Source: Collinsella bouchesdurhonensis
Lineage (GTDB): Bacteria > Actinomycetota > Coriobacteriia > Coriobacteriales > Coriobacteriaceae
Assembly: GCF_900155365.1 (NCBI RefSeq)
Contig: NZ_LT699739.1
Span: forward strand, 180,333 to 244,332
Length of the DNA stretch: 64,000 bases
Direction of reading: 5' to 3'
The translations under genes and the position numbers were made by a program. Within the stretch, counting starts at the first letter, position 1; each line of letters starts with the position of its first letter. This document shows, piece by piece, positions 35,687-40,041 of the stretch. A model generated the notes under the pieces. That model worked only from the letters and a program-made list of their open reading frames with translations. It did no database searches and was not told the DNA's origin.

Positions 35687-36925
35687 ATGGCAAGTCGCGT
35701 ATGTCTGGTGCACTATCACGAGATAGGGCTTAAAGGCAAGAATCGCGCCCATTTCGAACGTATCCTCATGGATAACCTGAAGGCGGCCTTGGCCGCCTTT
35801 TCAGTCTCGACCATCGTTCGAATTTCTGGGCATATTCTCGTCACGTTTTCCGGGGCGGGTCAGGCAGAAGAGGCATTTGACCACATGCTTCGTGTCCCCG
35901 GTGTTGCTCGTGTATCGCTGGCGTTCCATACTAACCGTGAGCCTGCGGAGTATTGCGATGCGGCCGTTAAGGCTCTTGGCGAGTTTGGTGAGTTTCAAAC
36001 GTTTAAAGTCGCGGCAAGGCGCTCCAACACGGATTACCCCCTGACGTCAATCGACCTTAATCGTCAGGTGGGGGAGGTGCTCTGTGAGGCTTTTCCCGAT
36101 AAAAAAGTGCAGATGCATGATCCCGATGCCACGGTTCACGTACTCGTGGTGCAAGGAAGTGTGTACGTGTACGCAAAGAGCGAACGCGGCTGTGGCGGTC
36201 TTCCTCAGGGGAGTGCCGGTAAGGTTGTTACGCTTCTTTCTTCTGGTATCGATTCTCCTGTTTCTACCTGGATGCTTGCTCGTCGCGGTGCCGTGCCGGT
36301 GCCTGTTCATTTCTCCGGCCGTCCGCAGACTGCCGATACCAGTGAGTATCTGGTTCAGGATATTGTTCGTGCACTTGGACCCGAGGTTCAAATCGGTCGC
36401 GTCTACGTTGTTCCGTTTGGCGATTGTCAGCGCGAGATTTCGATCGCCTGTCCTAACGCCCTGCGCGTGATCATGTACCGACGTATCATGTATTCTGTGG
36501 CAGAACGTATCGCTCAAATTGAGGGAGCAAAGGCAATTGTCACCGGAGAGTCCCTGGGTCAGGTTGCCTCGCAAACGCTCGAGAACATTATGGCGGTCAA
36601 CGAGGTTGTGGATATTCCTGTTTTTCGCCCGCTTATCGGTTCCGACAAGCAAGAGATTATCGAGCGCGCCCAATCCATCGGTACGTTTGATATTTCCACG
36701 CAGTCTGCTCCGGATTGTTGCACGCTGTTTATGCCCAAGCGTCCCGAGACCCATGCACGCTTGGATGCCGTGCATGAAGCCTGGGACATGTTTGACCATG
36801 AGGCGATGATTGAGCATCTGGTCAAGCATGTCGAATATATCGACTTCAAGACCTCATGTTACCGTCGTCCCAAGGAGCTTTCACAGATCCATACCAGTCT
36901 TGCCCCCGCTGAGCAGGCCTGTTAG
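35687..36925 (+). CDS. thiI: tRNA 4-thiouridine synthase ThiI (no rhodanese domain)
   Basis: Adenylates U8 of tRNA for s4U formation and can take part in thiazole synthesis. 412 residues: an N-terminal ferredoxin-like domain, THUMP (about 60-165), and the PP-loop SSGIDSPVSTWM near 185. SDKQEIIERAQSIGT near 322 and the adjacent cysteines in PDCCTLFMPKRP near 342 are typical. There is no C-terminal rhodanese domain, so sulfur must come from a separate cysteine desulfurase not seen here. Confidence 0.94.
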   Translation: MASRVCLVHYHEIGLKGKNRAHFERILMDNLKAALAAFSVSTIVRISGHILVTFSGAGQAEEAFDHMLRVPGVARVSLAFHTNREPAEYCDAAVKALGEFGEFQTFKVAARRSNTDYPLTSIDLNRQVGEVLCEAFPDKKVQMHDPDATVHVLVVQGSVYVYAKSERGCGGLPQGSAGKVVTLLSSGIDSPVSTWMLARRGAVPVPVHFSGRPQTADTSEYLVQDIVRALGPEVQIGRVYVVPFGDCQREISIACPNALRVIMYRRIMYSVAERIAQIEGAKAIVTGESLGQVASQTLENIMAVNEVVDIPVFRPLIGSDKQEIIERAQSIGTFDISTQSAPDCCTLFMPKRPETHARLDAVHEAWDMFDHEAMIEHLVKHVEYIDFKTSCYRRPKELSQIHTSLAPAEQAC

Positions 36926-36973
36926 ATTTCATTGAGATTCTTGTAAGGTTGCGCTTCGGTATTTGATGTTGCC

Positions 36974-37023
36974 CATCCCCCTTTTCTCTTCCTTTGCAAA
37001 TATGGGTAGAGAGGAGGGGGATG
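36974..37023 (+). promoter_or_regulatory. Hairpin sequestering the comEA ribosome binding site
   Basis: Bases 36974-36989 pair with 37008-37023: sixteen continuous pairs, two of them G-U, around an 18-base loop. The 3' arm contains the comEA Shine-Dalgarno (GAGGAGGGGG), and the GTG start is four bases beyond the stem. The same region also offers CCCAT (36972-36976) with ATGGG (37002-37006), a smaller competing pairing. No T-run follows, so it is not a terminator. I infer translational control of the competence genes. Confidence 0.65.
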
Positions 37024-37027
37024 TTTC

Positions 37028-37717
37028 GTGGCTCAACATGTTCATAACAAGGCTTTGCTCGCGAGGGCATTTGCGCTTGCTCGTCAAAGGCCGCGCTATC
37101 TTTTGCTTGCGCTGCTTGTCTTGCTTGGTTTTCTTATTGCACTTTTTTGTGGGACCGCTGCCGCTCGCGGAGATCGCGATGCTTTAATTGAGCGCTCGAG
37201 TGACGAGGCCGTGCCATTGCCATCCGCTGAGTCAAAGGCATCTCCCTCTCCGGATTCTTCTTCGGAGAGCGCCGCGCTTATTGTCGATGTTTCGGGCGCC
37301 GTTTTGAATCCCGGAGTATATGAACTTAAGGAAGGCTCTCGGGTTGACGACGCCATTCAGGCGGCGGGGGGATTGTCAGAAGATGCCGACACTTCTGCCC
37401 TCAATCGTGCCTCACTTCTATCCGATGGAATGAAGATAACGGTTCCTCGCCAAGGAGAGGCGGCTCGGGAAGGCTCTCCGGCTGTTGGAGATGCGCAGGT
37501 TTCTTCGGATGCATCTACGGCAAAATCTCTGATCAATATCAATACCGCCTCGTCAGAAGAGCTTCAAACGCTGAATGGGGTTGGCCCATCGACGGCTGAG
37601 GCGATTATCGCCGACCGTGAGGAAAACGGCCTTTTTGCTACCACAGAAGACCTGATGCGCGTCTCGGGCATTGGTGATAAGAAGTTTGCGAAGATCAAGG
37701 ACGCGATATGCGTGTGA
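37028..37717 (+). CDS. comEA: Competence protein ComEA
   Basis: Membrane-anchored receptor that binds incoming DNA during transformation. 229 residues from a GTG. One hydrophobic anchor lies at about 24-44, then a Ser/Pro-rich linker. An SLBB domain (VDVSGAVLNPGVYEL, near 83-97) follows. Two helix-hairpin-helix motifs lie at the C-terminus (ININTASSEELQTLNGVG near 169 and LMRVSGIGDKKFAKIK near 211). The start lies just outside a strong leader hairpin. The end overlaps comEC. Confidence 0.94.
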   Translation: MAQHVHNKALLARAFALARQRPRYLLLALLVLLGFLIALFCGTAAARGDRDALIERSSDEAVPLPSAESKASPSPDSSSESAALIVDVSGAVLNPGVYELKEGSRVDDAIQAAGGLSEDADTSALNRASLLSDGMKITVPRQGEAAREGSPAVGDAQVSSDASTAKSLININTASSEELQTLNGVGPSTAEAIIADREENGLFATTEDLMRVSGIGDKKFAKIKDAICV

Positions 37718-40041
37718 AGCGCATGCCCGAGTTTCCTCCTCGCCCCTTTATACCGCCGCTTTTTTGGTGCGCGCTAGGTTCCATCGTTATATCGATGGTA
37801 ATGCTCGAGAATGCTTGGGAACGAGCTAGAGCGGGAAGATGGTGCGGCTTTTCTTTTATCCTGCCGGTTGTTGTTTCTTTGGTTTGCATTGCGTGTCTGA
37901 TGTGCACCCGTGTTATGCGTCATTGCAAGGCTGCAAGCCTATTGAAGGCATTGCGTCTTGCTTGTCTGTGCTTAATTGCGCTCGTTTGGTCGGTGTGCCT
38001 GTGGTCGAATGGTATGGCCACTCAGATTGAAGAGGTCAAAGGGACGGCAAGCTCCTATGTCTTTGAGGTTATCGGCGATTCTAATCCAGGGGAGTACGGT
38101 TTTTCCTATACTGCAGTGGCAAAACGAAAAGACGGATCAGGCACGACCTTTCGCGTGCGTGCGACGGGAGAGAAGAGCCAAATGCGCGGCGATCGGTTTT
38201 GCGCTGTTGGCAACTTTGCTGCTCTTGGCGATTCCGATTGGGCGCGTTCTCGGTTTTTTAAAGGTGAGGTGGCACGTCTATCGCTGCACAAGTGTTATCC
38301 GGCAGAGCATGAGGTGTCCAACGATGTTGTCCAGCGGGCACGACGTTTTCTTTTGAATCGTCTGAATCCGGATTCTACTGAAGAGGGCTCCTTGATCGCT
38401 GGTGTTCTTTGCGGCTATACGACCGAGCTGAATCGCGGGTCGATTCGGGAAGATTTTGCTGCATGCGGCCTATCTCATCTGATTGCTGTTTCGGGAAGCC
38501 ATCTGGCGATTGTTGCGTGTCTTGTACAAAACGTGCTTTGGCGGTGTGGTCTTGATTCGCGTAAATCGCGTGTCCTTATGCTTGGAGCCTGTTGCTTTTA
38601 CACATTGCTTACCGGTGCGGCGCCATCGACGATTCGTTCGGTTTGCATGGTTGGCTGTACAAATGTTTCGATGGGATCCGGTCGCCGCTCACACGCCCTC
38701 TCATCGCTTTCTTTAACGCTGATCGTCATGTTGGTCATCTGGCCAAATTTCGTATTCGATTTGGGATTTCAATTATCGGCGTTGAGTGTCGCGTCGATTT
38801 TGATATTCGGACGCTACGTCTCCTATGCTTTGCACGTGCTGCGGCTTCCATCGTTTATTGCCGAGGGCATGGGCATTACGCTGACGGCCCAGATCGCGAC
38901 GCTTCCCTTGACGACGTTGGTATTCGGTCAAATATCCCTCTTAGCCCCGGTGGCGAATGTGATTATCGCGCCTCTTATTTCACTTCTTTTGGTTTTAGGG
39001 GTCGTTGCGGCGACGGTCCTTTGGATTCCTGGCATATCGGCTTTTCTGGCATTGCTTCTTCATTTGTGCTCACGGGTCATTCTCTTTTTTGTTGGCGCCT
39101 TGGCTGCGGTCCCCTTTGCGAGCCTGTATGTTTCTCCACTACCTTATGCCTGGCTTGTACCGCTAACTTGCGCTGTTTTGCTTTATTGGTCGTGGCCTCG
39201 GCCAAGCGGACGAATTGTCCTCGTATTGTTTTCGCTTGTGGTTGCGCTTGTGGGCATCGACCTCCTCTATTGGGGGCGCTTTGCTCCACCGCAAATCACC
39301 GTTCTTGATGTTGGCCAGGCCGATTCCATCCTCATTCGTGATGGGGACCGCTGCGTTTTGATCGATGCGGGGGTAGACGATACCGTGCTTGAAGCGTTGG
39401 CTTCCGAGCGCGTCCTTTCTTTAGACGCCGTCTTGGTAACGCATTGGGATAAAGATCACTACGGAGGGCTATGCGATATTGCAAAACGATATTCTGTGGG
39501 AGAGGTCATCGTGGCTCAAGGGGCTGTCCAGCAGGCGCCTTCCGAGATTGAAGATAGCGGTTTGAATCTCGTTGAGGTTGAACGAGGCGATACTATCCAT
39601 GTGGGTAGGTTTGTCTGCACCGTAATGTGGCCCTGCGAGACGGTTGACGGGGACGATAACGAGGACTCCCTTGTACTGCTTGCGCGATATGTCGAAGGTT
39701 CGGCACATCTCAGCATGTTGTTAACGGGAGACTCCGAGGTTGATCAGGAGCATGAATATGCGCCTGCAGTAGGCGATATCGATATCCTGAAGTTAGGGCA
39801 TCACGGCTCTGCTAAATCGGTTGACATGTCGTTGCTTGAAGTGCTCGATCCGGAGGTTGCGATAGCATCGGCGGGGGCTCGTAACAGCTACGGTCATCCT
39901 GCGGATGAGTGCGTCGCTGCACTTCAAAACTACGGTGCCCGCTTTTACTGCACGATAGACGATGGCTCGGTTTCGTTTTTTCCTGACGCACGGGGAATAC
40001 GTGTGCATTGCTCTGGCTCAAGGGGCGCCGCGTTAGAATAG
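37708..40041 (+). CDS. comEC: Competence channel ComEC/Rec2
   Basis: Forms the inner-membrane channel for single-stranded DNA uptake. 777 residues. Several N-terminal hydrophobic helices precede the competence domain, which starts near 225 with EGSLIAGVLCGYTTEL and HLIAVSGSHLAIVAC. About ten membrane segments are visible. A C-terminal metallo-beta-lactamase-like domain starts near 533 (LDVGQADSILI), with THWDKDHYGG near 580. The ATG at 37708 overlaps the comEA stop; an ATG five codons later is equally possible. Confidence 0.93.
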   Translation: MRVKRMPEFPPRPFIPPLFWCALGSIVISMVMLENAWERARAGRWCGFSFILPVVVSLVCIACLMCTRVMRHCKAASLLKALRLACLCLIALVWSVCLWSNGMATQIEEVKGTASSYVFEVIGDSNPGEYGFSYTAVAKRKDGSGTTFRVRATGEKSQMRGDRFCAVGNFAALGDSDWARSRFFKGEVARLSLHKCYPAEHEVSNDVVQRARRFLLNRLNPDSTEEGSLIAGVLCGYTTELNRGSIREDFAACGLSHLIAVSGSHLAIVACLVQNVLWRCGLDSRKSRVLMLGACCFYTLLTGAAPSTIRSVCMVGCTNVSMGSGRRSHALSSLSLTLIVMLVIWPNFVFDLGFQLSALSVASILIFGRYVSYALHVLRLPSFIAEGMGITLTAQIATLPLTTLVFGQISLLAPVANVIIAPLISLLLVLGVVAATVLWIPGISAFLALLLHLCSRVILFFVGALAAVPFASLYVSPLPYAWLVPLTCAVLLYWSWPRPSGRIVLVLFSLVVALVGIDLLYWGRFAPPQITVLDVGQADSILIRDGDRCVLIDAGVDDTVLEALASERVLSLDAVLVTHWDKDHYGGLCDIAKRYSVGEVIVAQGAVQQAPSEIEDSGLNLVEVERGDTIHVGRFVCTVMWPCETVDGDDNEDSLVLLARYVEGSAHLSMLLTGDSEVDQEHEYAPAVGDIDILKLGHHGSAKSVDMSLLEVLDPEVAIASAGARNSYGHPADECVAALQNYGARFYCTIDDGSVSFFPDARGIRVHCSGSRGAALE

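Follow-up and report, generated by a model that had tools for sequence, protein, structure and literature searches.

In phage T4 gene e and in the transposase genes of IS10 and IS50, the ribosome binding site (RBS) is hidden in read-through RNA, while in transcripts that begin at the start site of the gene itself the 5′ arm of the structure is missing and the RBS is open. Operators of the PhoB/OmpR family are tandem 11-bp direct repeats before activated genes. For competence genes, translation is hampered by a stem in Haemophilus influenzae sxy mRNA and in that of Vibrio tfoX, the latter with the small RNA TfoR (PMC3739930). Legionella RocR/RocC exerts control at the 5′UTRs of the comEA, comEC and comF mRNAs (PMC7973641), and in Micrococcus luteus, a member of the Actinomycetota, Flp pili are required for transformation (PMC4322843). 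Literature searches found no study on competence control in Collinsella or Coriobacteria.

The comEA-comEC locus considered here is within a 64,000-nucleotide stretch of the Collinsella bouchesdurhonensis genome (the window), whose features given below are all on the forward strand. comEA (37028-37717; Pfam HHH_3 and SLBB) has a GTG start and is followed by comEC (37708-40041; Pfam Competence and Lactamase_B). Upstream and co-oriented is thiI (35687-36925; an ORF matching Pfam ThiI), 102 nt from comEA. The TAG stop of thiI (36923-36925) falls within the first of three repeats described below, so there is no space for a separate thiI terminator. No terminator was detected upstream, and a scan of 36700-37300, which permits loops of 3–8 nt only, lists none at the comEA stem. 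This gene order is common: thiI is upstream of comEA and co-oriented in 120 of 137 comEA loci, as set by thiI homology since orientation based on ORFs is unreliable (antisense ORFs in GC-rich DNA). Collinsella vaginalis (L040, L217 and L219) has two comEA copies that share the same match score and are separated by ~3.2 kb, either a tandem duplication or an assembly artefact, and at another locus (L045; G009:C33:72975-73519) comEA is in two overlapping frames, possibly a frameshifted copy.

The original prediction placed 16 consecutive pairs between 36974-36989 (CATCCCCCTTTTCTCT) and 37008-37023 (AGAGAGGAGGGGGATG), with the Shine Dalgarno (SD) sequence of comEA in the 3′ arm and the start codon four bases from the stem. 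All of this is borne out. Two of the pairs are G-U and 14 are Watson-Crick, and RNAfold (z = −3.2 versus shuffles) returns the identical 16-bp stem and adds an inner helix of 3 bp and a 10-nt loop. The SD, AGGAGG, is at 37012-37017, and the bases between the stem and the GTG at 37028, TTTC (37024-37027), begin a T-rich tail that is here a weak U-tract. With E. coli-style thermodynamics and an E. coli-style anti-SD, comEA ranks first in SD opening cost (25.0 kcal/mol, the second being 17.2 and the 99th percentile of good-SD genes 14.3) among 402 scored genes, their starts script-chosen as were those in relatives, in a 464-kb background that is one annotation-free sample of the same genome. It is also first there in uninterrupted SD-containing pairing (16 pairs, the runner-up having 11), and because of these two ranks the hairpin is taken to be more than chance. 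Rfam has no family above gathering score for the comEA leader, just sub-threshold microRNA-hairpin matches. Elsewhere in the genome (G000:C11, ~4375, plus strand), a ruvC-like gene (MIILGIDPGLAHTGW...) has its SD opposite a complementary GCCTCCC ~40 nt upstream, with an opening cost of 16.1.

Every one of the 45 genomes of the genus has a ComEA, as do 242 of the 249 of the order. The search for the pairing in relatives that was proposed with the original prediction found it conserved and not lost. In Coriobacteriaceae the SD is in a stem in nearly all comEA leaders despite widely different arm sequences (examples are L098, with a 21-pair run, L103, L106 and L111), and such a stem is also found in much of the Atopobiaceae and in some other Coriobacteriia (L127, L168, L180, L201). 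It is absent from Eggerthellaceae comEA leaders. When arms were permuted among 35 non-redundant leaders of the family, own arms gave −21.9 and permuted arms −16.6 kcal/mol (z = −10.1), a mean loss of 5 kcal/mol when the 5′ arm is that of another species. For leaders from outside the family the difference is less marked (z = −4.0). The series C-G, U-G, U-A is found in L108, L115 and L114. Compensatory changes in sister pairs (4 observed versus 1.3 expected) are too few to decide, and the argument for covariation therefore rests on the arm exchange.

Three direct repeats of 11 bp, of the OmpR/PhoB type, precede the hairpin: box 1 (GTTAGATTTCA, 36921-36931), box 2 (TTGAGATTCTT, 36932-36942) and box 3 (GTAAGGTTGCG, 36943-36953). 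They were found by self-similarity, an EM motif and genome search. comEA leaders are self-similar at a lag of 11 (t = 5.0 in the family and 8.6 elsewhere) and at one of 22 (t = 2.6 and 5.1, respectively), the lag-11 signal being absent in 402 control genes, and the EM motif consists of three 11-bp boxes with a consensus of roughly GTnAGaTT. Over the 684 kb scanned with a PWM, the comEA site is first at 23.6 bits, by a model that includes this site, followed by a second site of 20.7 and a third of 16.3 bits. An IUPAC pattern search of the whole 1.88-Mb genome finds the first two of these only, one before comEA and the other before the Tad-pilus operon, and the reversed pattern has zero matches. 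The second triple-box site (G000:C15, about 361335-361470, minus strand; L262:16336-16470) is upstream of a Tad/Flp operon with Pfam matches for RcpC/CpaB, a ParA/MinD-like ATPase, a T2SSE ATPase and two T2SSF proteins. Boxes are found at the Tad operons of relatives also, with their position kept in many family members, and the SDs there are accessible, at a median opening cost of 6.3. In the Tad leader of this genome (L281), a small hairpin, GCAAAGAC-ACG-GGTCTTTGC, is just 5′ of the SD, which is outside it. The comEA repeats are a candidate operator for a regulator of the OmpR/PhoB type, and the genome has eight Trans_reg_C matches, seven of them above cut-off. The second copy suggests that the Tad pilus is co-regulated with comEA-comEC. 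An early reading of box 3 (TAAGGT) as the −10 element gave way to the three-repeat operator.

In 27 of 30 Tad leaders, [GC]ACAAT is exactly 78 bp after the start of the boxes, and seven bases past it there is a pyrimidine/purine step at −1/+1, as expected of a −10 element and a transcription start. In comEA leaders A..AT is at 78 (23 leaders) or 79 (13) bp, a total of 36 of 68, and its distance to the boxes is steadier than that to the start codon. The comEA element is weak, being at these positions in about half of the leaders and without the usual first T. In the window it is AAATAT (36998-37003), against a pattern of xANNAT in the family, and is part of the apical loop of the hairpin; as the element is at the apex, the predicted start, 7 bp on at about 37010 (±2), is inside the 3′ arm and downstream of the whole 5′ arm. 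The column of the predicted start is a purine in 84% of Tad leaders and in 87% of the comEA leaders carrying the element; the base before it in the window is G. A start downstream of 36989 had been named in the original prediction as what would count against it, and the anatomy of the promoter, read from sequence, predicts such a start. RNA beginning there would have its SD core opened at 3.8 kcal/mol in the window versus 21.1 with the full hairpin, and over 76 leaders the medians are 2.7 and 10.2.

A second candidate, element 1 (36958-36966, GGTATTTGA; Tad consensus ACTTTCTCA), is T-rich and also at a fixed distance from the boxes (columns 37–45 after their start); it is conserved in Tad leaders (L282-L309), weaker in those of comEA, and may be UP-like or a rival −10. 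The apex motif was at first taken for a site of RNA-protein or kissing-loop contact, a reading given up because the motif has the same box distance in Tad leaders, which have no conserved stem around [GC]ACAAT (p = 0.24). A small upstream ORF from an ATG in the loop was dropped as well, its frame relative to comEA varying among leaders and an SD being absent. In the Eggerthellaceae, at least one comEA locus (e.g. L216) retains the triple box (19.4 bits) but has neither the RBS hairpin nor a −10-like element at +78.

Hairpin strength depends on the surroundings. Across 87 non-redundant loci it falls as the thiI-comEA gap lengthens (rho −0.54, p = 9e-8) and is lower where thiI has a separate terminator, as scored with a simple home-made rule (rho −0.35, p = 0.001). 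It is higher the more Ts there are among the last eight bases 5′ of the start codon, a content that may itself slightly affect the computed opening cost (rho 0.48, p = 2.5e-6). All three relationships hold in phylogenetically independent contrasts (t = −4.2, −2.4 and 4.3, respectively). Such tracking of gap, terminator and tail is a better fit for insulation from read-through than for an inducible translational lock. The pattern has its exceptions: in several lineages a good thiI terminator and a moderate hairpin (10–15 kcal/mol) coexist, the T-tract behind some strong hairpins is poor, and in the window the tail amounts to TTTCGT only.

The computed hairpin, conserved and with matching arms, the boxes with their fixed spacing, and the correlations with gap, terminator and T-tail are most likely the marks of an insulator that straddles a promoter, acting by RBS block, thiI termination or both (either might dominate), and not of a switch that needs an opener. 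In RNA running in from thiI, both arms would be present and would fold so that the SD of comEA is hidden, and in the many lineages where the stem has Ts behind it, it probably terminates read-through transcription too. The promoter of comEA would span the DNA of the hairpin, from three boxes for a regulator that we infer to be of the OmpR/PhoB type, through the −10-like element in the loop, to a start in the 3′ arm. The mRNA made from it would begin near the SD, lack the 5′ arm and be open to translation. Production of comEA-comEC would then require activation of a promoter of a kind common to the Tad-pilus operon, the insulator being built where this promoter leaves a thiI terminator no space. 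On balance we think it probable that the hairpin insulates comEA-comEC in this way against thiI read-through, with its own promoter across the hairpin DNA and its own mRNA open. The burial and conservation of the SD on which the original prediction was based stand, but the need for something to unlock it probably does not: as the SD would open at ~4 kcal/mol from the predicted start, versus 21 with the hairpin, translation would call for neither a small RNA nor a protein nor a shift in temperature.

For the hairpin to be an inducible translational lock, the comEA mRNA would have to start at about 36973 with element 1 as its −10, carry the whole stem, and be opened by a small RNA, an RNA-binding protein or an RNase III cut, as in Haemophilus sxy and Vibrio tfoX. 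Element 1 is at a fixed distance behind the boxes, and if it is a real −10 the hairpin is in comEA's own mRNA, where the opening cost from 36973 is still 21 kcal/mol. SD pairing conserved across genera and the precedents among competence genes (PMC3739930, PMC7973641) are in keeping with this. However, the distance of the apex motif is fixed relative to boxes in DNA rather than to the SD or start codon and is common to Tad leaders without such a stem, and a strength that follows thiI spacing and terminators is unexpected for a switch. Arm sequences vary by species, so a trans-acting RNA would need to change with them. As for temperature, an imperfect stem, marginally stable close to growth temperature, would be expected of an RNA thermometer, which was dropped given an opening cost of 21–25 kcal/mol and 16 uninterrupted pairs; stems of 16–20 bp that are perfect and GC-rich likewise make one implausible. 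The lock is considered unlikely.

Somewhat less likely again is that the hairpin is a plain intrinsic terminator of thiI whose 3′ arm does double duty as the SD of comEA, RBS block being a side effect. The T-rich tails behind strong stems (e.g. L111, L127, L201), with the correlation that they reflect, and the trade-off with separate thiI terminators are as such a terminator would have them, but several of the strongest stems (L098, L107, L115, L179) lack a good T-tract, the window in part also, and the pairing always covers the SD. Pairing of a pyrimidine-rich promoter spacer with a purine-rich SD, as a by-product without function, would be in accord with the pyrimidine-rich sequence just before the −10 of Tad leaders and with the ~−16 kcal/mol at which swapped arms still pair. 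Yet pairing is far better between the arms of one leader than after swapping, the series C-G, U-G, U-A occurs in L108, L115 and L114, and the hairpin is first among 402 genes, which makes this reading highly improbable.

If the promoter-straddling insulator is extended to the order, DNA uptake in Coriobacteriales would be controlled through a regulon of two operons, those of comEA-comEC and of the Tad pilus, marked by a triple 11-bp operator and, at a fixed distance, an unusual xACAAT-like −10. An inverted repeat spanning the −10 and the start of comEA would restrict translation to RNA from the dedicated promoter, and in evolution such an insulator would trade off with the terminator of the neighbor. 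On this broader proposition we are evenly divided. A specific candidate operator is now proposed for competence in Coriobacteria, and comEA-comEC is tied to the Tad pilus as the likely uptake machine. In M. luteus comEA/comEC and tad genes serve transformation (PMC4322843), whereas the link in Collinsella is a promoter motif common to the two operons.

The stems of sxy and tfoX differ from that of comEA in being in the gene's own mRNA, where they must unfold, and in having as their target a regulator (PMC3739930). Repression by RocR/RocC and that proposed for the comEA hairpin are alike in being post-transcriptional and in acting on DNA-uptake genes at the 5′UTR, but in Legionella it is due to a trans-acting small RNA with a FinO-domain chaperone and is exerted on the gene's own mRNA (PMC7973641). 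A general caution follows: a hairpin that hides an SD upstream of a gene is not necessarily in the mRNA of that gene, and the transcription start should be located first. With PhoB/OmpR operators the comEA boxes have in common three direct repeats and an 11-bp period, but their consensus, GTnAGaTT, differs, and with a start at 37010 they would be further upstream than in classic pho-box promoters. The arrangement illustrates how a bacterium may silence a costly operon without space for a terminator. It resembles the T4 e/IS10 type in having the SD inside a stem and a co-oriented upstream gene, thiI; its place in that class hinges on the start of comEA transcription, which is predicted to be past the 5′ arm. 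It differs from T4 e, IS10 and IS50 in that the operon is a core chromosomal one for competence, the proposed −10 is in the loop, and the strength of the hairpin varies with the terminator of its neighbor.
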